DNA of 31,644 nt. Source: a virus. The notes under the pieces are model-generated. The model was not told the DNA's origin, did no database searches, and saw nothing but the letters and a program-made list of their open reading frames with translations. This document shows positions 58 through 24,558 of this stretch, piece by piece. The stretch lies in IMG/VR virus record IMGVR_UViG_3300048121_000522, positions 1 through 31,644 of that record; one strand, written 5' to 3'. Both the position numbers and the translations under genes were made by a program. Each line of letters begins with the position of its first letter. Position 1 is the stretch's first letter.

Positions 58-127
58 TATGGCAACGACTTACGACAAAGCGAGTCTGGTAATGATACCG
101 AGTGGTGTCAAGGAAAGCAAATTGTAT
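1..127. repeat. Exact 127-bp terminal direct repeat, copy 1
   Basis: Bases 1-127 are identical to 30457-30583; the first mismatch is at 128 (a) against 30584 (t). The repeat spans the end of the small DGG-motif gene and the first 23 codons of the adhesin gene. Its length equals a k-mer size commonly used in metagenome assembly, which points to an assembly-graph overlap at a branch rather than a packaged terminal repeat. Confidence 0.9.
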
Positions 128-1876
128 AGCATCAAGCCTACGGACGGCGATGGTGATTTCACCTTTAGTAGAGGTACGGACACGGCAACGAGGGTGAATA
201 GTAGCGGACTGATTGAGAAGGAGAGAGGGAACTTTGTTTCTTGGTCAAACGATTTTTCAAAAGCATCTTGGCTTAAAATACAATCTTCAATATCCGCTGG
301 ATTTAGTGGGTATGATGGTAGTTCAAATGCTTGGAAAGCGGTAGAAAACACCGCTAATAGCAATCATTATTTTTATCAAAATGCCTTGAATAGTAATGTC
401 AGCACATTAAGTTTATATGCAAAGACTAATGGTAGAGATTTGCAATTACGAGTAGATGGTGTTGGTACAAATAAGGCATTTGTAAATTATGACTTATCTG
501 CTGGTTCTATTGGTTTATCGGGTGGTACTGGACTAATTGATTCTAATATTGAATCAGTAGGAGGCGGATGGTATAGATGTTCATTTGCAGTAAGTGATTC
601 GGGGACTTATGGTATGGGTATCGTTATGATTACTGATGCCGCAACATCTACCGAATTATCATCATACATTGGTGATGGCGTAAGTGGAATTTTTATCCAA
701 GATGCACAATTGGAACAAGGTTTAGTAGCCACAGATTACATTGAGACCTCTGCTCCCGTTTATGTAGGCATTACGGACAACCTACCGAGATTGGATTATC
801 ATAATCCAGATTCACCGACTCCTAATTCGTGTCCGTCTTTGTTGCTTGAGCCGAGTAGGACGAATCTTGCGGTACATAGCGAGTATTTCAACTCATATAG
901 CGCGGTGCGTTTAAATAGGAATGCAAATAGCGCAACTTCACCAGAAGGCGTAACAAACGCCACAAAATTAGTTCCTACGGCAGTATTGGGTACGCACTAC
1001 TTTGTGCAAACAAACGCAGTAACAAGTGGACAAAAAACGACTATTTCGTTTTATGCAAAAGCAGACGGATACAATTTCATTCGTGCCGTATTTAGTTCAA
1101 TAAACGGAGCGTATCCCGATTACTACCAATCCTTTGATTTAAGCGATGGAAGTCTTGATGATAGTAGCGGTATTGATTCTGCTGACATAGAACCAATGGG
1201 AAATGATTGGTATAGATGTACGGCAACGGCAACGGCAGCAGCAAGTGTTTCAAGTGCAAATTATTTCTTTTTGTATGAAACAAGTAACACGCCTACATTT
1301 ACGGCCGATGGCACAAGCGGTGTTTTGATTTACGGATTACAAGTAGAGACAAACGCAAGTTACCCCACCTCCTACATCCCCACCTACGGAACGAGTGCGA
1401 GTAGGGCGTTAGAATATGGTATTTCAGATATTTCTTCACTACTTACATCTAACGAGGGTACATTGTTAATTCATTTGAATGATGATGCTAATTCTGGAGG
1501 ATATGGTAGTGGTGCTTTATCTATTGGTTTACAAGCAATAGGTGGTGCTAATTTTGTTGGATGGGCATCAAATTCCCCAGCAGATACTGAATTGAGGGGT
1601 ATTTACAAAGTAAGCGGTTCTACTTATTATTTAGGTTCATCTACTGCCGTTAATACAGAATGTAAGATTTTGATAAAATGGGATTCGGGTTCTGCTTCAT
1701 TCTTTAAGGATGGCGCATTAGTTAATACGCAATCAGTCGGAGGTTTTAGCGGTCAGCCACTTGATGAATATCTATTGCCTAATCAATACAGAACGGGTAA
1801 TTTCCCGATGAAGCAAACACTTGTTTTCCCAACTGCTCTAACTGATGCCGAGTGTATCGCCCTAACAACTATTTAA
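59..1876 (+). CDS. Putative tail adhesin / receptor-binding protein (allele A), 605 aa
   Basis: I infer a tail fibre or receptor-binding protein. Residues 1 to about 55 form a head segment almost identical to the gene at 30515. Two beta-rich modules follow, at about 58-230 and 265-440. Each starts with a hydrophobic NxF/EYF segment and carries a WYRC motif near its end, as in carbohydrate-binding jelly-roll modules. Between them is a conserved block with LPRLDY and CPSLLLEPSRTN. Residues from about 450 to the end resemble a LamG/concanavalin-A-like sandwich (GTLLIHLND, then FFKDG). ATG 59 lies one base after the upstream stop. The protein has no signal peptide, as expected for a virion protein. 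The sequence after residue 55 differs strongly from the copy at the other end of the window, the usual pattern for host-range determinants. The adhesin role rests on architecture and position. Confidence 0.7.
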   Translation: MATTYDKASLVMIPSGVKESKLYSIKPTDGDGDFTFSRGTDTATRVNSSGLIEKERGNFVSWSNDFSKASWLKIQSSISAGFSGYDGSSNAWKAVENTANSNHYFYQNALNSNVSTLSLYAKTNGRDLQLRVDGVGTNKAFVNYDLSAGSIGLSGGTGLIDSNIESVGGGWYRCSFAVSDSGTYGMGIVMITDAATSTELSSYIGDGVSGIFIQDAQLEQGLVATDYIETSAPVYVGITDNLPRLDYHNPDSPTPNSCPSLLLEPSRTNLAVHSEYFNSYSAVRLNRNANSATSPEGVTNATKLVPTAVLGTHYFVQTNAVTSGQKTTISFYAKADGYNFIRAVFSSINGAYPDYYQSFDLSDGSLDDSSGIDSADIEPMGNDWYRCTATATAAASVSSANYFFLYETSNTPTFTADGTSGVLIYGLQVETNASYPTSYIPTYGTSASRALEYGISDISSLLTSNEGTLLIHLNDDANSGGYGSGALSIGLQAIGGANFVGWASNSPADTELRGIYKVSGSTYYLGSSTAVNTECKILIKWDSGSASFFKDGALVNTQSVGGFSGQPLDEYLLPNQYRTGNFPMKQTLVFPTALTDAECIALTTI

Positions 1877-6490: not shown

Positions 6491-6949
6491 ATGAACATTT
6501 TCTATTTAGATTCTTGTCCGGACAAATCAGCCCGACTTATGTACAACAAGCACGTTGTCAAGATGATTCTTGAGTCAGCTCAACTATTGTGTACTGCACA
6601 TCGTGAGTTAGGCAACGAAAACGTCCCTTACAAGTCTACACACAAGAACCACCCCTCAGCGGTGTGGACTCGTAGCGATGCAAACCACTACGTATGGGTA
6701 TATCTTCATATGATGGCCCTAGGAGAAGAATACACTCGTAGGTATGGTCGCAAACATATGACCATTACAAAGTGTGAGAAGGTTCTTGCTGACCTTCCTC
6801 CTAACATTCCGGTCAACAACTTTGAGCAACCACCACAATGTATGCCACAAGAGTACAAAGCTGACTGCTCAATCAAGGCTTATTGGAATTATTACCACGG
6901 TGCCAAGCGCAGCATCGCAACCTCAACCGATAAACTACTTTCCTTATGA
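6491..6949 (+). CDS. Conserved phage protein of unknown function, 152 aa
   Basis: The N-terminus MNIFYLDSCP, then KHVVKMILESAQLLCTAHR (20-38), HKNHPSAVW (51-59) and CMPQEYK (117-123) are blocks I recognise from a family found in many marine phages, some annotated loosely as DNA-repair proteins without support I can confirm. The conserved His/Lys/Asp residues in the first 60 positions could be catalytic. It is probably an early or middle gene because it follows a T-tract promoter candidate and lies in the replication block. Function is left open. Confidence 0.7.
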   Translation: MNIFYLDSCPDKSARLMYNKHVVKMILESAQLLCTAHRELGNENVPYKSTHKNHPSAVWTRSDANHYVWVYLHMMALGEEYTRRYGRKHMTITKCEKVLADLPPNIPVNNFEQPPQCMPQEYKADCSIKAYWNYYHGAKRSIATSTDKLLSL

Positions 6950-11070: not shown

Positions 11071-11397
11071 ATGAATACAAGAGAACACTTTATCAGCAGA
11101 ATGGAGGACATCGAGGTAATGATGATTTCCCAAGACCACGATGGTCTTAACCACTACGGGCTTGAGCTTCAGTACAAGCCGGAACAAGAAGAATTTCATT
11201 GGATGCTTTCGTGGGGTGGCCCACAAGAAACAATCATAATGCGAGGGCTTGGTAAGCAAGCTCGTTTCTTTTTTGAGTACAAGCATTGGAATGAGTACGA
11301 TGAGTTTGAGATTACTTCTCCGCTTGAGTGCGTTGCGTTGCAAACGCTTTTTATGGATTGGTTTAACGTAGCGGAGATGTACGATGTTTTACAGTAA
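11071..11397 (+). CDS. Hypothetical protein, 108 aa
   Basis: 108 aa, acidic and aromatic-rich (HWMLSWGGPQETI near residues 43-55, and a C-terminal MDWFNVAEMYD). No membrane segment is seen. I do not recognise a defined family, although the WGGP block resembles small mobile-element proteins. AACCAACT (11060-11067) stands 3 nt before the ATG, which supports this start. It overlaps the exonuclease gene by 14 nt. Confidence 0.7.
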   Translation: MNTREHFISRMEDIEVMMISQDHDGLNHYGLELQYKPEQEEFHWMLSWGGPQETIIMRGLGKQARFFFEYKHWNEYDEFEITSPLECVALQTLFMDWFNVAEMYDVLQ

Positions 11398-12178
11398 CAA
11401 GGAAATACTAATGCTCGATGGCATCTACCACGAGGTAGGCCATCTTGAGCAACTCGCAAAGGAAGATGAGCATTACTATGGGTACTTGGGACAAGCAGCC
11501 TTGTCCTCAAGCTCTATCAAGATGCTACTCAATTCTCCAAAGACTTACCATTACGTTAGCAAGTACGGAGGCAACAATAACTCAAAAGCCTTACTGATTG
11601 GAAAGCTGTTTCACTTGTCGGTTCTCGAACCGCACAAGATGGATGCTGTTGTTGTTGTTGACGTTCAGTCAAGAGCGACAAAGAAGTTCAAGGAAGCAGT
11701 CGAGGCTAACGAAGGTGTGGACGTTATAACTGCAAAGGAAGAAAAGGACGTAAGGAGGCTTCAAGACCATATGCTTCGTAACGAGAAAGTGCTTGGATAT
11801 TTGAAAGATGCACAGTTTGAGATACCTCGTGTTGATATGCTTGACGGTATGCCCTTCCGTGCGAAGGCTGACATTCTGCAAGGTAACCATATCATTGACC
11901 TCAAAACGACAAGCGACCTCAACGCCTTCAAGTATTCAGCATACAAGTACGGCTATGATATTCAAGCCTACATTTACTGCAACCTATTTGGTATACCACC
12001 GGAGAACTTCCACTTTGTCGCTATCGACAAGGGCAGTCTTGACATTGGAGTGTATCACGTTAGCGAGGAGTTTTACGAGAGTGGTAAGAAGCGAACGCAA
12101 AAAGGTATAGATTTGTACCGTAAGTTCTTTCAAGAAGGTATAGACTTAGATAGTTATTATATAGAAGAAACGTTATGA
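11384..12178 (+). CDS. RecE / exonuclease VIII-like PD-(D/E)XK nuclease
   Basis: 264 aa. LSSSSIKMLLNSPKTYHY (about 40-57) and GKLFHLSVLEP (73-83, with H77) match the N-terminal part of the RecE-like PDDEXK family. The catalytic core is FRAKADIL (158-165, D163) then IIDLKTT (170-176, D172 and K174), and Q194/Y198 in DIQAYIY complete the usual motif. It should resect dsDNA 5' ends to give ssDNA for annealing. No RecT/Erf/Redbeta annealing partner is recognised in the window, although an SSB is. It may alternatively support DNA replication or degrade host DNA. It overlaps the sugar-transferase gene by ATGA, so the modification cassette is coupled to it. Confidence 0.85.
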   Translation: MFYSNKEILMLDGIYHEVGHLEQLAKEDEHYYGYLGQAALSSSSIKMLLNSPKTYHYVSKYGGNNNSKALLIGKLFHLSVLEPHKMDAVVVVDVQSRATKKFKEAVEANEGVDVITAKEEKDVRRLQDHMLRNEKVLGYLKDAQFEIPRVDMLDGMPFRAKADILQGNHIIDLKTTSDLNAFKYSAYKYGYDIQAYIYCNLFGIPPENFHFVAIDKGSLDIGVYHVSEEFYESGKKRTQKGIDLYRKFFQEGIDLDSYYIEETL

Positions 12179-12885
12179 TACCAAAGAAGATACATCAGAT
12201 TTACTTTCCGTGGAATGGGCCTTTCGAGGCCATTCCTATTTTTGTTAAGAGCAGAAAGCTATTCCAAGAAGTGCACCCCGATTGGGAGTACAAGCTGTGG
12301 GGTGAGGAAGATGCTATGCAATTAGTAGAGGAACACGCACCCGACTTGCTTCAGTTCTACAAGGATATGAGGTTCAACATACAGCGAGTGGACTTCATCA
12401 AGTTTCTTATACTCAAGGTTCACGGTGGCTTTTACTGCGACTTGGATTCGCATTGTATTCAGTCTTTCGAGCCTCTGCGAAGCAAGAGGTTCATACTACA
12501 TACTTTGAAGCACCTCATACCTAATCACCACGAGTATGTTCAGAATGACTTTATGGCATCAGAACCCGGCTTCAAGTTTTGGGACATTATATTTACTGAA
12601 CTTCCGATGAACTACAAGGAGAAAAAGGCAAACCCTATATACGAGCAATGGAAGGGCCGTTTTGTTTTACAAACCACTGGCCCGGCTTTCTTATCAAGAG
12701 TCGTTAAAGCAGCTCTAAGCACGTATAAGCCGCAGAAGGTAGCGTGGACCAAATGGAAAAACGATAATTGGGAACGCTTTGATAGAAACGACTATTACTT
12801 TGAATCATATCAAACGGCCTCGTGGGCCTTGGATGTGAGCCCTAACTTGAAACCTAATAAAATCTTCACTAAAAATGAAAACTGA
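12175..12885 (+). CDS. GT32-type DXD sugar transferase, probable DNA-modification enzyme
   Basis: 236 aa. The N-terminus IPKKIHQIYF, PDWEYKLW (35-42), RVDFIKFLIL (71-80) and GGFYCDLD (84-91, with D89 and D91 as the DXD metal site) identify the Gly_transf_sug/GT32 family. These enzymes transfer a sugar from a nucleotide sugar to an acceptor. The gene is locked by overlaps into the run ending in a TET/JBP dioxygenase, so the likely acceptor is a hydroxylated base in phage DNA. A protein or cell-surface glycan acceptor cannot be excluded. It overlaps the ParB-like gene by 11 nt. Confidence 0.85.
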   Translation: MIPKKIHQIYFPWNGPFEAIPIFVKSRKLFQEVHPDWEYKLWGEEDAMQLVEEHAPDLLQFYKDMRFNIQRVDFIKFLILKVHGGFYCDLDSHCIQSFEPLRSKRFILHTLKHLIPNHHEYVQNDFMASEPGFKFWDIIFTELPMNYKEKKANPIYEQWKGRFVLQTTGPAFLSRVVKAALSTYKPQKVAWTKWKNDNWERFDRNDYYFESYQTASWALDVSPNLKPNKIFTKNEN

Positions 12886-13462
12886 AAAAGTATCTATAGG
12901 TAAGGTACACCTATCTGCAAGCAATCCAAGAGTTATTAAGAACGATAAGTTCCGTAAGCTAGTAAACAGCATCAAGGAATTTCCGGAGATGCTCAAGGTA
13001 AGGCCTATTGTTGTTGACGACGAGATGACTGTTCTCGGAGGTAATATGAGACTGAGGGCTTGTTTGGAGGCTGGGCTCAAGGAGGTTCACATTATCAAGG
13101 CTTCCGAGTTCAGCGAGGAGCAGAAGAAGGAGTTCGTTATAAAGGACAACAGTTCGTTCGGAGAATGGGATTGGGACTTACTTGCTAACGAGTGGGAGAT
13201 TGAAGAATTGAGCGATTGGGGTTTGGACATACCGGCCTCGTACTTTGACGAGGACGTTGAGCCTGACTTTGATATGGACGAGCTTGACAAGGACCTCGAC
13301 ATCTATATCAATTCCAAGGTCAAGCAGATAACGCTGTACTTTGACAACCAACAGTACGAGTATGTACTCGCCAAGTTAGATGAGATTATGGAGGAGCGTC
13401 AGCTTGAAAGCAACACAGATGTAGTATTAGCCTTATTAGAAGAATATGAACCTCAAGCATAA
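12875..13462 (+). CDS. ParB/Srx-fold protein of DNA-modification cassette
   Basis: 195 aa. Residues 1 to about 95 form a ParB N-terminal-like domain: SASNPR (14-19), RPIVVDD (43-49) and VLGGNMRLRA (53-62), which corresponds to the nucleotide-binding GxxR box of ParB CTPases. The WDWDLLANEW segment (98-107) and WGLDIP (115-120) occur in ParB domains linked to phage and mobile-element DNA modification. Residues 145-190 form a small C-terminal domain (KQITLYFDNQQYE). There is no ParB helix-turn-helix centromere-binding domain, so plasmid partition is unlikely. In published surveys ParB domains accompany TET/JBP oxygenases and glycosyltransferases. It may guide or power the modification enzymes on DNA. 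Confidence 0.82.
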   Translation: MKTEKVSIGKVHLSASNPRVIKNDKFRKLVNSIKEFPEMLKVRPIVVDDEMTVLGGNMRLRACLEAGLKEVHIIKASEFSEEQKKEFVIKDNSSFGEWDWDLLANEWEIEELSDWGLDIPASYFDEDVEPDFDMDELDKDLDIYINSKVKQITLYFDNQQYEYVLAKLDEIMEERQLESNTDVVLALLEEYEPQA

Positions 13463-14177
13463 GTGGTTGGCCCTTGTACCAAGCAAGGGCAGACCGGAAG
13501 AATTTGCCAAGAGCTGTAAGCCATTACTTGATACGCTGCCGATTGACTCGGCAGTTCTTCTTGAACAAAGCGACTACGACAAGTATGACTACCCGAACAA
13601 GATTCTACTTGACAAAGAGAACCAAGGCATTGGGTACGCTATACACTTTGCAAGGGTATGGGCAGAGGAGAATGGCTATGACGTTATATTTAAGATAGAC
13701 GATGACGTAACCAAGATAGGAACCATACACGAGGACTTGGAAACTATTGACCGTTACCTATACAAATATGAGGACTTGGCCGGTGTGAGCTTCCCGTATT
13801 CTTTTGAATTTTACGACATTACCGAAAAAAAACTGTTCAGCCACATAAATAAACGGTTCCAAACTTGTTATATAATAAAGACAAAGTTCTTTCAAACGAC
13901 TACAAGGCTGAAGCAGATTGAGGATTTCTTCTATTATATGATGGCCATTAGGCAGAACGGTTGGGTACTTCGATGCAGCAAACACCCGATGCACACCGCA
14001 CCGGTGGGCAGCAATTCGGGTGGCGCTCAGATGTTTGACCGAGCAGCATTATATTTAGAGGACATAAAACTATTCAAAGAGATAGACCCTTCTATTGAGA
14101 TAATACACAAGCCGGATAAGAACTGGAAGTACGAGCCTAAACTTACCGACATAATGTACAAGTCAAAACCTATATGA
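13446..14177 (+). CDS. TET-associated-type GT-A glycosyltransferase
   Basis: 243 aa. The N-terminal strand and loop LALVPSKGRPE (8-18), ENQGIGYAIHFAR (58-70) and FKIDDDV (82-88, IDDD as the DXD-like metal site) give a GT-A fold nucleotide-sugar transferase. This arrangement and the immediate coupling to a TET/JBP gene match the TET-associated glycosyltransferase group. It is a second, different glycosyltransferase from the GT32-type gene at 12175, so the two could build a disaccharide or act on different substrates. It starts within the ParB-like gene (17-nt overlap) and its stop overlaps the dioxygenase start by ATGA. Confidence 0.83.
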   Translation: MNLKHKWLALVPSKGRPEEFAKSCKPLLDTLPIDSAVLLEQSDYDKYDYPNKILLDKENQGIGYAIHFARVWAEENGYDVIFKIDDDVTKIGTIHEDLETIDRYLYKYEDLAGVSFPYSFEFYDITEKKLFSHINKRFQTCYIIKTKFFQTTTRLKQIEDFFYYMMAIRQNGWVLRCSKHPMHTAPVGSNSGGAQMFDRAALYLEDIKLFKEIDPSIEIIHKPDKNWKYEPKLTDIMYKSKPI

Positions 14178-15073
14178 AAGAACTACACCTAACTCGTAAG
14201 GACATAGACATAGATAAATACAAGAAGCGCACGGCATTGCGCTCTGATGTATCTACCCTCATAAAAGAGGATGTGATTATTTATGTAGATAACCAACCGG
14301 TGTTGTTGTATAAGAAGCTCGAGGAAGATACCTCAGCCCTTCGCTGGGCCGTTAAAAATATCCAATACGCCACGGGGAAGCGTTCAAGGGGTTTGGTCTC
14401 TACAAGCGCTATATTTGGTTACTCGCCTCGCATAGCGATGCGCCACGATTATTGCACAGTAACGGCAATGGCTGTGAACCAAAAGAAACAGCACCACGTT
14501 ATTACTGAATTTGCCAAAGACCTCGTAGGATACTACAGAAAAAACTTCCCAGAACGCTATGAGTTCCACAACAAGTTAGTAGAAGAACGAGTAATGCAAG
14601 ATTGGACTATCGGAGGTAGTCCCTTCACATCGGGTATTGTAAACAAGAACAACCAACTGAACTATCACTATGACGCTGGAAACTTCAAAGGCGTATTATC
14701 CAATATGGTGGTATTCAAGAAAGACGTAGCAGGAGGGTATTTAGTAATACCCGAACTTGATATTGCACTAGAAGTAGCAGACAAGACACTAACTATATTC
14801 AACGGACAAGAAATACTACACGGAGTAAGCACCATAGAATACGACAACGAACACGCATATAGATATTCTGCCGTATATTACTCACTTGAGCAAATGTGGA
14901 AGTGCGAACCGTTAGATGATGAGATAGCAAGAATACGCAAGGTGAAAACCGAGCGTGAAAAGAAAAGGTTAGACCCTGAGCATCTTGATAGTCTACGAAA
15001 AAGAAAGGAACAACTGCAAGAACACAGCATAAAAGAGATGCTGACAAGCAAAAAGAAAAATGACAAAAACTGA
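14174..15073 (+). CDS. TET/JBP-family 2-oxoglutarate/Fe(II) DNA-base dioxygenase
   Basis: 299 aa. The dioxygenase core is visible: H165-Y-D167 for iron binding in NYHYDAGN, GGYLVIPEL (187-195) as the strand before the distal loop, H216 in EILHGV as the third iron ligand, and R230 in HAYRYS as the 2-oxoglutarate-binding arginine. Residues 70-96 (GLVSTSAIFGYSPR then RHDYC) resemble the region N-terminal to the core in phage TET/JBP proteins. Such enzymes oxidise the methyl group of 5-methylcytosine, or of thymine in JBP, in DNA. Residues 245-299 are a charged helix. Coupled to two glycosyltransferases and a ParB-like gene, it should create hydroxymethylated bases that are then glycosylated. It overlaps the terminase small-subunit gene by 14 nt. 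Confidence 0.85.
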   Translation: MKELHLTRKDIDIDKYKKRTALRSDVSTLIKEDVIIYVDNQPVLLYKKLEEDTSALRWAVKNIQYATGKRSRGLVSTSAIFGYSPRIAMRHDYCTVTAMAVNQKKQHHVITEFAKDLVGYYRKNFPERYEFHNKLVEERVMQDWTIGGSPFTSGIVNKNNQLNYHYDAGNFKGVLSNMVVFKKDVAGGYLVIPELDIALEVADKTLTIFNGQEILHGVSTIEYDNEHAYRYSAVYYSLEQMWKCEPLDDEIARIRKVKTEREKKRLDPEHLDSLRKRKEQLQEHSIKEMLTSKKKNDKN

Positions 15074-15407
15074 CATAAGTAAAAAGGCAATGCTCAAAGC
15101 ACTTGAGAAGTCTCTAGGGGTGGTTACCAGCGCTTGTAAGAGCGTTGGAATATCAAGGGAAACACATTATAAGTGGCTACGAGAGGACGAGGCTTATAGA
15201 GGTGCAGTATCTGACTTTGAGAATGTAGCTTTGGACTTTGCAGAATCACAACTGCATCAGCAGATAAAAAAGGGAATACCTACGTCAACGATATTCTACC
15301 TCAAGACGAAAGGAAAGAGTCGTGGTTATGTTGAGCGTCAAGAAATCCAACACGACGGAGGCGAAGGCCTACGCATTGAGATTATAGATGGCAACACTTC
15401 AGACTAA
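15060..15407 (+). CDS. terS: Terminase small subunit
   Basis: 115 aa. Residues 8-40 form a helix-turn-helix (KAMLKALEKSLGVVTSACKSVGISRETHYKWL) like the DNA-recognition domain of small terminases. A helical oligomerisation segment (about 48-75) and a polar tail follow. It directly precedes and overlaps by 20 nt the large-subunit gene, which is the normal order. Its role is to recognise phage DNA for packaging. Its start lies inside the dioxygenase gene, so packaging and modification genes are on one transcript. Confidence 0.85.
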   Translation: MTKTDISKKAMLKALEKSLGVVTSACKSVGISRETHYKWLREDEAYRGAVSDFENVALDFAESQLHQQIKKGIPTSTIFYLKTKGKSRGYVERQEIQHDGGEGLRIEIIDGNTSD

Positions 15408-16551
15408 TGTTGTATTTAGACACCTACAAAACAGCGAGAGTAGGATAGTTGTAGAGCAAGGCGGTACACGTTCCGGCAAAACCTACAATATCCTTATATG
15501 GCTTATGACCTATTGCCTTGCACCGGAGAACAACGGTCAAGTAATAACGATATGTCGTAAAACCTTTCCGGCTGTCCGTGCTTCCGTGATGCGTGACTTC
15601 TTTGAGATACTTGAACGTGCCGGTCAGTACAACCCCGATAGCCACAACAAGAGTAGCAGCGAGTATTATCTTGGTGGGAATATGATTGAGTTCATATCCC
15701 TTGACCAACCTCAAAAGGTACGTGGTAGAAAGCGTGATTTGCTTTATATAAACGAGGCCAACGAGTTGCACTTTGAGGACTGGCAGCAGCTTATTATGCG
15801 TACCTCTGGTCGCATTGTTATTGACTACAACCCTTCGGACGAGTATCATTGGATATACGATAGAGTGATACCAAGAGATGATGCAGAGTTCTACAAGACT
15901 ACATACCTTGACAACCCGTTCCTATCTACGGCTATCATATCAGAGATTGAGAGGCTACGTCAAACGGACGATAACTATTGGCAAGTGTATGGCCTCGGTG
16001 AACGAGGACAAAGCAAGTCGGTAATCTTTACCCATCAAGAAGTAGAGAAGATACCGGAAGGTGCATCGCTTATTGCAGCAGGGATGGACTTTGGGTTTAC
16101 GAATGACCCCACTACTTTGGTGGTTGCCTATCGCAAGGACATAGACTTGTACTTTGAGGAGCTTGTATATGAAACGGGATTAACAAACCGAGATATACAC
16201 AAGAGGCTGCAGTCGCTTGGCTTCGACAAGCGTACTGAGATATTCGGAGATAGTGCCGAGCCGAAGTCTATCAAGGAGCTTCAGCTTTTTGGTTGGAACA
16301 TAAAGCCAACAGCCAAAGGTAAGGATAGCGTTATGGCTGGTATTGATATGCTGAAACGATATAGGCTGAACGTAACCAAGTCAAGCACAAACTTGATTAA
16401 GGAACTAAGAAACTATAAATTCGTAGAGGACTATAACGGCAAGGTACTGAACAAGCCGGTAGATGCTTTTAACCACGCCATAGATGCTGTGAGGTATGCT
16501 ACATACAATAGAATGAGCAGACCAAACTACGGAAGGTACGCAGTAAGGTAA
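15388..16551 (+). CDS. terL: Terminase large subunit
   Basis: 387 aa, Terminase_3-like packaging motor. The ATPase half has Walker A GGTRSGKT (25-32) and Walker B LLYINEA (118-124) with E123 catalytic. The nuclease half has GMDFGFTNDP (232-241) with D234, FGDSAEP (286-292) with D288, and NHAIDAVRY (362-370) with D366, forming the RNase-H-like metal site. Length is on the short side of the family. The gene is followed after 15 nt by the tail-chaperone gene rather than by the portal, which is an unusual order. The assignment is firm; whether packaging is headful (pac) cannot be judged from sequence alone, although the circular assembly hints at it. Confidence 0.96.
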   Translation: MATLQTNVVFRHLQNSESRIVVEQGGTRSGKTYNILIWLMTYCLAPENNGQVITICRKTFPAVRASVMRDFFEILERAGQYNPDSHNKSSSEYYLGGNMIEFISLDQPQKVRGRKRDLLYINEANELHFEDWQQLIMRTSGRIVIDYNPSDEYHWIYDRVIPRDDAEFYKTTYLDNPFLSTAIISEIERLRQTDDNYWQVYGLGERGQSKSVIFTHQEVEKIPEGASLIAAGMDFGFTNDPTTLVVAYRKDIDLYFEELVYETGLTNRDIHKRLQSLGFDKRTEIFGDSAEPKSIKELQLFGWNIKPTAKGKDSVMAGIDMLKRYRLNVTKSSTNLIKELRNYKFVEDYNGKVLNKPVDAFNHAIDAVRYATYNRMSRPNYGRYAVR

Positions 16552-21765: not shown

Positions 21766-23665
21766 GGAAACCGTACAGATTGACGTAGAAACTAATGCGG
21801 ACAAGACGGCAGACGACCTAACGTCTGCGGTAAGAGACTTGCAGAAGGCTATTGAAGCAATGACCGGTTCTATGAATGATGGCTTTTCAGAGGCCAACAA
21901 CAACATAAACAAGGTTGACGAGGGTGTACAAGATATAGGCACAAGCGCAAAGAACAGTGAGAAAGGAGTAAAGACACTTTCCACCGGCTTTAGAGGTATG
22001 GGAGCTGCTATGAAAGCAGCCGGTATCGGCCTTGTAATAGAGGGCTTAAATATCCTTAAAAAGCTTCTTGGTGAAAACCAAGTTGTAGTTGATGCTTTCA
22101 ACACAGCGTTTGAGTTTGTTTCTATTGCCTTTAACGACTTTGTAAACTTCATTCTTGCTAACTCAGAAGCAGTAACCGGCTTCTTCAAGGGTATTTTTGA
22201 GGACCCAAAACAAGCGTTGCTTGATTTTGCTGATGCATTCAAGAGAAACATACAAGAGCGTTTTGAATCATATCTTGATACGCTCGGTTATTTAGCGAGT
22301 GCCGTTAAAAAGGTGTTTAGCGGAGACTTTGCCGGTGCTTTGGAAGATGTAAAATCAGCCGGTAAAGAGTCGCTTGACGTTCTTACTGGTGTTAACAACA
22401 CCTTTGACAAGGGCAAGGAAGCCATAAGCAAGGTTGCTACGGCAACCAAAGACTATGTGGTTCAAACGGGCAAAGCTGCAAAAGAAACTGTTGAGCTTAA
22501 CAAACAAGCCGAGTTATCAGATGCTATACGTCAAGGGTTGCTTGAAAAGTACGACTTGGAAGCAGAGAAACTGCGCCAAGTGCGAGACGATGAGCGTGTA
22601 ACAATATCCGAACGTATAAAAGCCAACGAGGACCTCGGTGCTGTGCTTGACAAGCAAGAGAAAGAAATGATGGCTGCAGCCAACTTGAGGCTTGTTGCCG
22701 CCGAGCGTGAGGCTGCGAAGAAAAAGGGCAACCTTGAGGCTGAAAAGGCCCTTATAGAAGCAAGGAACGAGGTTGCTGGTGTAGAAGCGCAAATCGCTGG
22801 GCTTCGCTCAGAGCAATTAACCAATGAGGCTTCTTTGCAGCGTGAGCTTGTTGAAATTGAGAACGGCAAAAAGGAAGCTGCGATTGAGGCCAACGAGATT
22901 GAGAAACAAGCAGCTATTGAAAAGGAGATAGACGTACTTAAGCGACTACAACTAGAGAAAGAATTAGCCGAGGAAACTAAAGTAGCAAGGCTTGACATTA
23001 TAGAGAGTGAACTTGCCAGCGTCAAGGAAGGTACTGCACGATACCAAGAACTATTGAATGAGAAGCTGCTCCTTGAAAAGGAAGCAGCCGCAGAAAGCAA
23101 GAGGATAGAAAGAGAAACGGAAGAAGAAAAGCTGCGCATAAGAGAAGAAAGCAACAAGGCTGTATTTGCTATGACTATGCAAGGCCTTGAGGCTGTATCT
23201 GCGCTTACGGAAGCGTTCGCTGGACAAAGCGAAGCGCAACAGCGTAGAGCATTCCAAGTGCAAAAGGCTTTATCAGCAGCAAGTACAGTAATGAGTACGA
23301 TTGAGGGTGCACAAAGTGCCTTCACAACAGCAAATAAATCACCTATTACTGCAGTATTCCCAGCTTATCCGTATATTCAAGCCGGACTTGCTACGGCTTT
23401 TGGTATTGCAAAGCTGCAGCAGATACGCACACAGCAGTTCTCACCGGATGGTTCGCCTTCTCCGCCAAGCACCTCAACGGGTGCACCGGCATCGGCTACT
23501 TCAGCACGTTCTTTTAGTCCGGACGTGAATGTTGTAGGAGCAAGTGGGGTTAATGTTCTTGCTGAAAGCATAAGTGGCCGTCCCGTGAAGGCCTATGTAG
23601 TAGGAGGCGATGTATCGACACAACAAGAATTAGATAGAAAACGAGTTAAAAACGCAACGGTGTGA
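21755..23665 (+). CDS. Tail tape measure protein
   Basis: 636 aa, almost wholly helical. There is a hydrophobic segment near residues 85-110 (FRGMGAAMKAAGIGLVIEG), a common tape-measure feature, and long Ala/Glu/Lys coiled coils from about 240 to 480. The C-terminal 100 residues become Pro/Ser/Thr-rich and then end RKRVKN. With the usual 1.5 angstrom rise per residue, a helix this long would imply a tail of roughly 90-100 nm. It is preceded by tail-tip genes and followed by the protease gene, which is not the canonical order. Its stop overlaps a GTG start. Confidence 0.85.
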   Translation: MAIKETVQIDVETNADKTADDLTSAVRDLQKAIEAMTGSMNDGFSEANNNINKVDEGVQDIGTSAKNSEKGVKTLSTGFRGMGAAMKAAGIGLVIEGLNILKKLLGENQVVVDAFNTAFEFVSIAFNDFVNFILANSEAVTGFFKGIFEDPKQALLDFADAFKRNIQERFESYLDTLGYLASAVKKVFSGDFAGALEDVKSAGKESLDVLTGVNNTFDKGKEAISKVATATKDYVVQTGKAAKETVELNKQAELSDAIRQGLLEKYDLEAEKLRQVRDDERVTISERIKANEDLGAVLDKQEKEMMAAANLRLVAAEREAAKKKGNLEAEKALIEARNEVAGVEAQIAGLRSEQLTNEASLQRELVEIENGKKEAAIEANEIEKQAAIEKEIDVLKRLQLEKELAEETKVARLDIIESELASVKEGTARYQELLNEKLLLEKEAAAESKRIERETEEEKLRIREESNKAVFAMTMQGLEAVSALTEAFAGQSEAQQRRAFQVQKALSAASTVMSTIEGAQSAFTTANKSPITAVFPAYPYIQAGLATAFGIAKLQQIRTQQFSPDGSPSPPSTSTGAPASATSARSFSPDVNVVGASGVNVLAESISGRPVKAYVVGGDVSTQQELDRKRVKNATV

Positions 23666-24558
23666 AAATAGTAGAACTTATACTTGACGAAGAACAACTG
23701 CTGAGTGGCGTACAAGCCATCAGTATTGTTGAGCATCCGGCCATAGAGTCGGACTTTATTACCTTGAGCAAGGAGCAAGAAATTAAACTTGCAGAGGTAG
23801 ATAGCGAGAAGCGAATCCTAATGGGCCCAGCACTCATTCCTAACAAGACTATCTTCCGCAAAAGCGGAGAAGAAGAATACTACATATACTTCTCAAAGGA
23901 AACCGTGCGTAAAGCATCGGAGCTTTTCCTTACCAAAGGCAATCAAAACAAAAGCACTCTTGAGCATAACTTCGAGTTGGAAGGATTGAGTGTTGTTGAG
24001 AGCTGGATTGTTGAAGGTCAACAAGACAAAAGCCAAGCATACGGACTAAGCGTTCCCGAAGGAACGTGGATGGTTAGTATGAAAGTCTACAACGATGAGG
24101 TTTGGGACAACTACGTTAAGACCGGCAAGGTCAAAGGCTTTTCTATCGAGGGTTACTTTGCCGATAAGGTGAATATGGCTTCTCACGAAGATGAGGAAGC
24201 AGAGGAATTGCTTGAGGCAATTATGGAGGAGTTACAGCGCACCGAACTTGAGAGTTACAGCGACTACGGAAGCGGAGTAAGAAACAATGCCAAACGAGGC
24301 ATTGAACTCAACAAGAAGGTGAACAACAAATGCGCTACGCAAGTAGGCAAGGTCAGAGCACAGCAGTTAGCCAATGGCGAACCAATCAGCGTTGCTACAA
24401 TCAAGCGTATGCATTCGTATCTTTCTCGTGCCGAGGAATACTATGACGAAGGCGACAGCAAAGCGTGTGGCACTATCTCCTACTTGTTGTGGGGAGGCAA
24501 GGCTGGAAAGCGCTGGGCAGAGTCCAAGCTCAAAAGCCTTGGCGAGATACCAAAATGA
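23662..24558 (+). CDS. Prohead protease (XkdF-like) with extra C-terminal domain
   Basis: 298 aa, GTG start overlapping the tape-measure stop. Residues 1 to about 170 resemble the XkdF-type capsid maturation protease: H102 in STLEHNF and S161 in KGFSIEGYF are the likely catalytic His and Ser. The C-terminal part (200-298) has GVRNNAKRGIELN (205-217) and ACGTISYLLWGGKAGKRW (268-285), a domain frequently attached to proteases and portals in phages of this phylum, as I recall. It should clip scaffold and capsid termini. The acidic scaffold-like gene follows after 34 nt and the capsid gene is two genes on. Confidence 0.8.
   Translation: MKIVELILDEEQLLSGVQAISIVEHPAIESDFITLSKEQEIKLAEVDSEKRILMGPALIPNKTIFRKSGEEEYYIYFSKETVRKASELFLTKGNQNKSTLEHNFELEGLSVVESWIVEGQQDKSQAYGLSVPEGTWMVSMKVYNDEVWDNYVKTGKVKGFSIEGYFADKVNMASHEDEEAEELLEAIMEELQRTELESYSDYGSGVRNNAKRGIELNKKVNNKCATQVGKVRAQQLANGEPISVATIKRMHSYLSRAEEYYDEGDSKACGTISYLLWGGKAGKRWAESKLKSLGEIPK

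Follow-up and report, generated by a model that had tools for sequence, protein, structure and literature searches.

A phage cassette of a ParB-like protein, a TET/JBP oxygenase and two glycosyltransferases that probably builds a sugar-bearing thymine derivative in DNA

A viral DNA stretch of 31,644 nt (positions 1-31,644 of IMG/VR record IMGVR_UViG_3300048121_000522, hereafter called the window) carries a four-gene cassette that very probably oxidises a DNA base, to which sugars are then predicted to be attached. Judged from its genes, the best reading of the cassette is a TET/JBP oxygenase and glycosyltransferases that act on DNA. We consider it fairly probable that the cassette works after replication, with a ParB-guided TET enzyme hydroxylating thymine, a TET-associated glycosyltransferase (TAGT) and a GT32-type enzyme glycosylating the hydroxylated base, and the sugars varying between phages. 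The most likely product would be glycosyl-5-hydroxymethyluracil.

The cassette and its conserved core

The four genes lie on one strand, with an exonuclease gene on one side and terminase genes on the other (Table 1). They overlap one another by 11, 17 and 4 nt, and the flanks overlap as well: exonuclease and GT32 by 4 nt, TET and small terminase by 14 nt, and the two terminase subunits by 20 nt. The upstream exonuclease is outside the modification pathway. An original prediction, made from the sequence, had described an overlapping four-gene cassette at 12175-15073, and the open reading frames (ORFs), their overlaps and the family matches bear this out; its motifs, too, lie at the positions claimed. 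The profile searches that it proposed placed the GT32, TAGT and Tet_JBP matches over the Pfam cut-offs and ParB_N under its cut-off, and PHROGs supports the ParB assignment.

Table 1. Features of the cassette and its flanks, with family matches and motif positions (residue numbers).
Feature	Coordinates	Strand	Length (aa)	Evidence
PDDEXK exonuclease (exonuclease VIII-like)	11384..12178	+		DUF3799 1.2e-19; phrog_412 4.8e-38
GT32-type glycosyltransferase	12175..12885	+	236	Pfam PF04488 (Gly_transf_sug) 53 bits, cut-off 23, 5.6e-14; DxD present as DLD 89-91
ParB N-terminal-domain protein without methyltransferase domain	12875..13462	+	195	Pfam ParB_N 23.8 bits, under cut-off 26.3, 4.7e-5; phrog_498 (ParB-bearing DNA methyltransferase family) 4.4e-26; phrog_620 (ParB-like) 6.5e-25; GGNMRLRA from 55
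TET-associated glycosyltransferase (TAGT)	13446..14177	+	243	Pfam PF20691 29.2 bits, cut-off 27.5, 1.1e-6; IDDD from 84, D86 (invariant in a 15-row alignment), G192-G193
TET/JBP 2OG-Fe(II) DNA oxygenase	14174..15073	+	299	Pfam PF12851 (Tet_JBP) 47.4 bits, cut-off 34.9, 1.6e-12; H165-x-D167, H216 (Fe), R230 (2-oxoglutarate)
Terminase small subunit	15060..15407	+		phrog_309 1.3e-6; phrog_4044 2e-6
Terminase large subunit	15388..16551	+		PF04466 5.2e-20; phrog_2 5.1e-48

The last cassette gene encodes a protein with a predicted TET-type double-stranded beta-helix fold. Its AF2 model (pLDDT 70; residues 61-107 below 50) reached CcTet (1.3e-8), NgTet1 (5.6e-7) and TET2 (1.6e-6) in Foldseek, and in VIA-align it scored Z 15.5-15.9 with TET2, NgTet1 and CMD1, 13.4-14.0 with CcTet and 12.5 with the best AlkB-type row; the superposition on TET2 (Z 15.9) has an rmsd of 3.6-4.0 across 202-207 residues. 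A JBP catalytic structure was not among the matches when JBP and TET were compared by sequence. CMD1 was also reached, weakly (E 0.11), by the window-clade profile alone, and a single actinophage TET used as query found no viral contigs. The Tet_JBP match and the TET-like model thus agree with the original assignment to the 2OG-Fe(II) oxygenases, and neither profiles nor structures placed the protein elsewhere. The iron- and 2-oxoglutarate-binding residues are invariant in 73/73 phage TETs, the rows left after proteins shorter than 240 aa were set aside and the remainder was dereplicated at 88% (257 to 73 rows).

Related loci were compared as the best 80 of 86 relatives; a further search was likewise limited to its best 80, of 166. 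In the best 80 of 86, ParB, TET and terminase form a constant core around which glycosyltransferase genes have been exchanged. Cultured relatives have similar layouts: ParB-TET-TAGT-like-deacetylase in Arthrobacter phage Bolt007 (host A. globiformis B-2979) and ParB-TET-terminase in Mycobacterium phage KayaCho (host M. smegmatis mc2 155). Counted over loci that include near-copies, and that are not independent because the clade records are fragments and many of them near-copies, a ParB homologue is found in 72 of the 80, on the same strand as TET and upstream of it in 72/72, and a small terminase homologue in 69, of which 64 lie at most 50 nt from the end of TET. Since the catalytic residues and the ParB-TET order are kept across relatives, the motifs and the cassette are not due to chance, and the retention of the core while glycosyltransferases were swapped supports sugar hypermodification of DNA.

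The base that would be hydroxylated

To judge from sequence comparisons, the substrate is probably thymine and not 5-methylcytosine. Thymine is favoured because the clade holds no C5-methyltransferase over the cut-off and because genes for an amino acid:DNA transferase (ADDT) and a P-loop protein occur in two related lineages. The original prediction had led with 5-methylcytosine and named thymine only in passing. Its proposal that an oxygenase and glycosyltransferases hypermodify DNA is upheld by gene content and by the context of the 80 loci (best 80 of 86); the ranking of the two bases is now reversed.

In the 5-methylcytosine route, which we regard as unlikely, a C5-methyltransferase of the host, or one of the phage that escaped detection, would make 5-methylcytosine, TET would convert it to 5-hydroxymethylcytosine (5hmC), and both glycosyltransferases would glycosylate 5hmC. 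It has precedents: phage systems of C5-methyltransferase, TET and glycosyltransferase yield glycosylated cytosine, according to PMC12730594, and the TAGT of T2 and T6 works on glucosylated hydroxymethylcytosine, adding sugar to sugar, according to PMC13216743 and PMC13390438. The search for the required methyltransferase speaks against it. None of the 81 clade records, window included, had a PF00145 match over the Pfam cut-off in a six-frame search; the positive control, another phage TET clade (Melnitz), had a C5-methyltransferase in 45/45 tested records (of 71), and a group of cyanophage and Nonlabens records had it in 2 of 46 tested, both cyanophage. One clade record, that of L026, does hold a divergent C5-like DNA methyltransferase (phrog_757 1.2e-29; 15.5 bits against a Pfam cut-off of 22), which favours the route; it is absent from the other 79 clade records searched, and as a query it found nothing in the window. 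Host 5-methylcytosine is usually limited to short motifs, which also counts against it.

Within the window, the proteins run through Pfam and/or PHROGs gave no methyltransferase besides a partial phrog_1530 match; seven + strand ORFs of 119-166 aa (starts 1878, 3256, 8896, 17291, 25201, 27209 and 29640) and shorter ones lay outside these family scans. The protein with the partial match (23662-24558) was rejected as a DNA methyltransferase and is read as a prohead protease, because it matches three head-maturation/protease families and sits among structural genes. As the window ends nearly close on themselves, a missing C5-methyltransferase gene beyond them would be unlikely.

The ADDT genes beside related TETs argue against 5-methylcytosine as well; ADDT would act on 5-hydroxymethyluracil (5hmU). 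ADDT was found in 4 of the 80 clade records searched (81 available), in 3/13 isolates and in 0/45 Melnitz-clade records, and its occurrences inside the clade represent two lineages, L050-L052 and L076. In L052, whose TET is 68% identical to that of the window (L050 and L051 are alike), the order is ParB-ADDT-FAD oxidoreductase-P-loop protein-TET; in L076 (TET 56% identical) it is ParB-TET-GATase-GNAT-like-ADDT-P-loop protein; and actinophage Tonitrus has ParB-TET-ADDT (9.4e-23)-P-loop kinase (3.6e-50). Ploopntkinase3 finds the P-loop protein only weakly in L052 (0.0061) and L076 (0.0036), and the one in a Siphonobacter locus has no good match to any kinase family. Such ADDT and P-loop (possibly kinase) genes point to thymidine hypermodification. 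The window itself gave no match to ADDT, nor did any window protein scanned with Pfam match Ploopntkinase.

The oxygenase sequences also speak for the thymine reading. In a tree of 63 TETs (the 73 rows less ten further window-clade rows), ParB-linked TETs of window, actinophage and cyanophage types cluster together (100/100), and the C5-linked TETs stand separately (100/100), with long branches meeting. Position R+8, which aligns with a His in TET2, is Leu in 27/27 rows of the window group, 3/3 bacterial-contig rows and 9/9 cyanophage-type rows, and Asp in 15/16 of the C5-linked group. This residue and ParB are imperfectly linked, because HTVC112P has ParB yet carries Arg at R+8, the residue that is also found in enzymes of the Cr30 type.

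Exchangeable glycosyltransferases and the ParB partner

The TAGT position between ParB and TET is a swappable slot. The DDD motif is conserved in 29/29 TAGT relatives. In loci gathered through ParB, TAGT relatives also adjoin ParB without TET in the examined stretch, which counts against the proposed pathway. The GT32 gene is a variable upstream sugar slot whose product probably adds or extends the glycan; where a GT32 homologue occurs, DLD is conserved in 13 of 14 relatives and replaced by DMD in the remaining one.

The scarcity of GT32 (14 of the 80 loci, best 80 of 86), its PDB match to an alpha-1,6-mannosyltransferase (9n3s, 4.6e-6) and the presence of other sugar- or small-molecule-type genes in the upstream slot of other loci would also suit an arrangement, improbable in our view, in which the oxygenase and ParB modify DNA while the glycosyltransferases, chiefly GT32, have another target, such as a protein of the virion or glycans on the host surface, and lie beside the other genes through chance or co-expression. 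Yet 50 of the 78 ORFs between ParB and TET in the best 80 of 86 loci are of TAGT type, and where TAGT is lacking the slot can carry ADDT, FAD and P-loop genes, whose enzymes would use a hydroxylated base. Both observations argue for DNA as the target.

We infer that the ParB-like protein likely partners the modifying enzyme, reading the DNA or loading the enzyme onto it. Among PDB chains, a profile of 12 ParB-like relatives reached Spo0J/ParB/Noc (best 5e-11). Sulfiredoxin did not come up in the Pfam, PHROGs or PDB profile searches, so the additional 'Srx' label once given to the protein is unsupported. The best 80 of 389 ParB relatives, counted without dereplication, comprised 2 known loci and 78 new stretches, eight of which (L270-L274, L276-L278) come from elsewhere on contigs that the TET set included before. 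TET is present in 30 of the 78, those eight included, and in 22 of the 70 on new contigs. Another 15 of the 78 are long ParB proteins with an N6/N4-methyltransferase-type motif, one of the 15 confirmed by Pfam as a methyltransferase fusion, and 33 have neither TET nor methyltransferase type, two of these ending within 200 bases past ParB. Partners of ParB relatives include ADDT, TAGT, Mom, QueC and the N6/N4 methyltransferase fusion; a DpdA-type label for the L337 protein was dropped, as Pfam gave no support. Because relatives adjoin or fuse to several DNA-modifying enzymes, also without TET, ParB as a TET-specific partner was rejected, and of the loading or guidance role first suggested only a general one is retained.

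That the TET-like enzyme is an anti-defence or RNA-directed 2OG oxygenase, with ParB serving packaging or partition, is very improbable. In its favour, the ParB gene and the rest of the cassette border directly on the terminase genes, and ParB relatives lie near terminase even where TET is absent, but the TET-type fold of the model, the catalytic residues and the DNA-modifying partners found elsewhere all oppose it.

Proposed pathway and known systems

In the thymine pathway, the ParB-like protein would put the oxygenase onto phage DNA, and the oxygenase would convert the 5-methyl of thymine in the polymer to give 5hmU; no methyltransferase would be needed, because thymine is already methylated. 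TAGT and GT32 would then load one or more sugars onto the new hydroxyl, in an order of transfers that we infer, and the end product would be a base-J-like glycosyl-5hmU that may protect the phage, in the original prediction against host restriction. As glycosyltransferases are exchanged between related phages, the sugar would vary and the hydroxylation step would stay.

A broader proposal, which we offer tentatively and at somewhat less than even confidence, is that a large and ecologically diverse phage group makes glycosylated 5hmU in situ, a virus base J with exchangeable sugars, by means of a thymine hydroxylase of the TET/JBP kind whose methyltransferase partner was lost or never existed, and that ParB beside terminase is a DNA-targeting module shared by TET, Mom, deazaguanine inserters and N6/N4 methyltransferases. 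PMC6449724 has base-J-type chemistry in phages as not reported as of 2019. If the proposal is true, such chemistry is present in phages as a viral counterpart of trypanosome base J, and the base becomes predictable from genome context, cytosine for C5-methyltransferase-linked TETs and thymine for ParB-linked ones. These phages would also supply thymine hydroxylases and 5hmU glycosyltransferases for use as tools, and the puzzling ParB-like genes adjoining phage terminases would gain a testable role. Nor would a phage 'TET' then have to mean 5hmC.

Iyer et al. in 2013 reportedly predicted clusters for TET/JBP modification in phages, together with their specificity for a base, and both the pairing of ParB with TET and the prediction of thymine may already have been put forward there. 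Burke et al. in 2021 and Pyle et al. in 2024 are said to have described phage cytosine hypermodification by C5-methyltransferase, TET and glycosyltransferase. The window resembles those systems in clustering a TET/JBP oxygenase with TAGT-type glycosyltransferases; unlike them, its clade has ParB in place of an over-cut-off C5-methyltransferase, stands apart in the tree and has Leu, not Asp, at R+8.

Kinetoplastid base J is made by the thymine hydroxylases JBP1/JBP2 and a glucosyltransferase, as given in PMC6449724 and PMC12730594. The proposed chemistry is alike, with thymine hydroxylated in DNA by a TET/JBP enzyme and 5hmU then glycosylated; the window enzymes differ in being phage-encoded, with a ParB partner, two glycosyltransferases and probably varied sugars. 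The trypanosome base J glycosyltransferase belongs to a different family from the window's two. Phage thymidine hypermodification (ViI, M6, phiW-14) employs a 5hmU kinase, an amino acid:DNA transferase, and FAD and other tailoring enzymes, and is echoed by the ADDT, P-loop and FAD oxidoreductase genes beside TETs 56-68% identical to that of the window. In phiW-14, 5hmU is made as a nucleotide by hydroxymethyl-dUMP synthase, according to PMC5977210, whereas the 5hmU of the window would arise in the polymer through TET/JBP, and the window carries glycosyltransferases in place of ADDT.

Conservation of the cassette and the oxygenase fold

All four genes of the original prediction, with every motif named for them, were found where they had been placed. 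Their overlaps measure 11, 17 and 4 nt. Upstream, an exonuclease gene joins the overlapping chain by 4 nt; downstream, terminase genes do so by 14 and 20 nt. Profile searches recovered the GT32, TET-associated glycosyltransferase (TAGT) and TET/JBP oxygenase (TET) families, while the ParB assignment fell below the Pfam cut-off and draws instead on PHROGs, which groups the protein with ParB-like and ParB-methyltransferase families, and on a profile built from this protein and 11 relatives, which matched Spo0J, ParB and Noc structures.

Located features in the window and in the record of one relative (L026)
Feature	Position	Strand	Match or remark
GT32-type glycosyltransferase	12175-12885	+	PF04488, 5.6e-14
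ParB-like	12875-13462	+	ParB_N, 4.7e-5, below Pfam cut-off
TAGT	13446-14177	+	PF20691, 1.1e-6
TET/JBP oxygenase	14174-15073	+	PF12851, 1.6e-12
Pyrimidine-dimer DNA glycosylase-like gene	6491-6949		PF03013, 1e-5; similar protein in L026's record
Window start and its repeat	1-256/30457-30712		92% identity, first 127 bases identical
Tail-protein gene	59-1876		second, diverged copy, interrupted by contig end
Diverged parts of the tail gene	745-799/31183-31237; 826-888/31249-31311		copies beyond 30712
Divergent C5-like DNA methyltransferase (L026's record)	L082:1138-1794	-	flanked by a DnaA-like gene and one resembling pyrimidine-dimer glycosylase

The oxygenase was modelled with AlphaFold2 from 19 sequences of the window clade (mean pLDDT 70, residues 61-107 predicted poorly), and the top Foldseek rows for the model were CcTet, CMD1, NgTet1 and TET2. 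VIA-align Z was 15.5-15.9 for TET2, NgTet1 and CMD1 and 13.4-14.0 for CcTet, with the best AlkB-type row at 12.5 and the best FTO row at 11.8. Both comparisons therefore place the model with the TETs and not outside the 2OG oxygenases, and the predicted oxygenase identity, as judged from this model, stands.

The window clade was sampled as the best 80 of 86 IMG/VR loci, and over the best segment their TETs are 55-89% identical. A ParB gene was recognised in 72 loci (71 in a stricter search), always upstream of TET on the same strand (72/72), and a small terminase gene in 69, of which 64 have it no more than 50 nt from where TET ends. Between ParB and TET, 78 ORFs longer than 110 aa were found: 50 fall into nine TAGT-type clusters (two assigned by similarity to the window TAGT, seven by a Pfam match above cut-off of one representative each), 15 into three clusters whose representatives lack a glycosyltransferase family match, nine are genes for amino acid:DNA transferase (ADDT), FAD and P-loop proteins in three loci (L050-L052), and four are others. 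A GT32 gene lies upstream of ParB in 14 of the 80 loci; elsewhere the genes at this position include some that match GT2 and GT4 weakly, one for a hexapeptide acyltransferase and one for a methyltransferase of the small-molecule type. Thus, the fixed core is the oxygenase and ParB, and the sugar genes are the variable part. The cassette is real and conserved, and very probably serves DNA hypermodification. Some relatives may bear complex glycans on their DNA: upstream of ParB, L073-L075 have small sugar-pathway clusters (GT4- and GT2-like proteins, hexapeptide acyltransferase and a methyltransferase weakly resembling FkbM).

The probable target base

Three lines, namely the absence of a C5-methyltransferase, the partner genes, and the enzyme residue and tree, make thymine a likelier target than 5-methylcytosine. 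No C5-methyltransferase exceeded the PF00145 cut-off in the window or in any record from the 80 loci (0/36 and 0/45), in a search that gave matches in 10 of 14 control genomes. Another phage TET clade, gathered with the Melnitz-3 TET, served as positive control: the enzyme was present in 45 of 45 records tested (of 71); by BLAST it lies within the fetched stretch in 66 of 71 loci, and ParB in none of the 71. It was also found in two of 46 cyanophage- and Nonlabens-type records tested (35/80 and 11/19 taken; both cyanophage) and in one of 13 isolate genomes, Melnitz-3. The exception is L026's record, where a 219-aa protein matches phrog_757 (DNA methyltransferase, 1.2e-29) with a Pfam score below cut-off; none of its type was found in the other 79 records searched, window included.

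ADDT acts in thymidine hypermodification. It exceeded the cut-off in four of the 80 window-clade records searched (81 exist), in none of 45 Melnitz-clade records, and in three of 13 isolates (Tonitrus, MossRose and Cr30). In L052 (TET 68% identical) the order is ParB, ADDT (1.5e-8), FAD oxidoreductase (4.7e-6, just below cut-off), P-loop protein and TET; L050 and L051 share this gene set and the ADDT match. In L076 (TET 56%), ParB and TET are followed by GATase, a protein that by eye resembles GNAT, ADDT (1e-20) and a P-loop protein. A contig of a Siphonobacter genome carries ParB, a P-loop protein whose family matches are weak, TET and, by reading, terminase-like genes. Among isolates, Tonitrus combines ParB and TET with ADDT and a P-loop kinase (3.6e-50), Kharcho with a kinase (1.4e-39) and terminase, and Bolt007 with a TAGT-like gene (22.7 bits, below cut-off) and a PIG-L deacetylase. 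A 5hmdU DNA kinase has been described (PMC7653180).

Eight residues beyond the 2-oxoglutarate-binding Arg (R230 in the window), a set of 73 dereplicated phage TETs has Leu in all window-clade (27/27), bacterial-contig (3/3) and cyanophage-type (9/9) rows, Asp in 15 and Gly in one of 16 C5-linked rows, and Arg in five of five Nonlabens-type rows; the 13 isolates have Leu (6), Arg (5), Ile (1) and Asp (1). HMMER aligned this position with a His (whole-sequence E 4.5e-4, segment alone 0.75) that contacts the base in TET2. A tree built from 63 of the 73 TETs, subject to a long-branch warning, has ParB-linked window-type, actinophage and cyanophage TETs as one group (100/100) and C5-linked TETs as a separate one (100/100). 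HTVC112P, with ParB and Arg at this position, groups with the Arg rows, so ParB linkage extends beyond the main group. Caulobacter phage Cr30 (L095) has an Arg-type TET with a strong ADDT gene (Pfam 1.3e-52) about 1.7 kb downstream, and thymidine hypermodification may therefore extend to Arg-type TETs.

ParB outside TET loci and the genome ends

ParB relatives also occur without TET. Among 78 new stretches, 30 have TET (eight from contigs in the TET set), 15 encode long ParB proteins that carry a motif of N6/N4 type (one Pfam-confirmed, 4.7e-19), and 33 have neither; in these 33, one representative matches Mom (1.2e-45), one QueC (2.5e-58) and four TAGT. From this context, we read ParB as a shared DNA-binding module of phage base modification. 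At the TET-less loci L285, L305, L294, L288, L296, L302 and L331, ParB stands beside Mom, QueC or further genes of the deazaguanine type, TAGT alone or an N6/N4 methyltransferase fusion, with a terminase gene close by in most.

The virus record is classed as linear. The window start recurs near the far end, where diverged tail-gene copies follow it, which makes a nearly complete genome of about 30.5 kb probable. The contig almost closes a circle of that length, then enters a second form of the tail gene, either a variant allele or a paralogue.

Relation to known systems

Mycobacteriophage records, KayaCho gp2 (L089) among them, label the TET/JBP gene 'queuine tRNA-ribosyltransferase' or, in one case, 'DpdA-like'; the former name is also given to phrog_6059. 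On phage TET/JBP genes this naming looks like a propagated misannotation. In the open-access literature, no ParB-TET-glycosyltransferase pathway for thymine appeared in titles or abstract beginnings among the matches listed, and ParB together with 2OGFeDO gave no matches. Phage systems of C5-methyltransferase, TET and glycosyltransferase have been described (PMC12730594), and the TAGT of T2 and T6 adds a second glucose to glucosyl-hydroxymethylcytosine (PMC13216743, PMC13390438). The distinctive claim of the present cassette is a base-J-like modification in phage.
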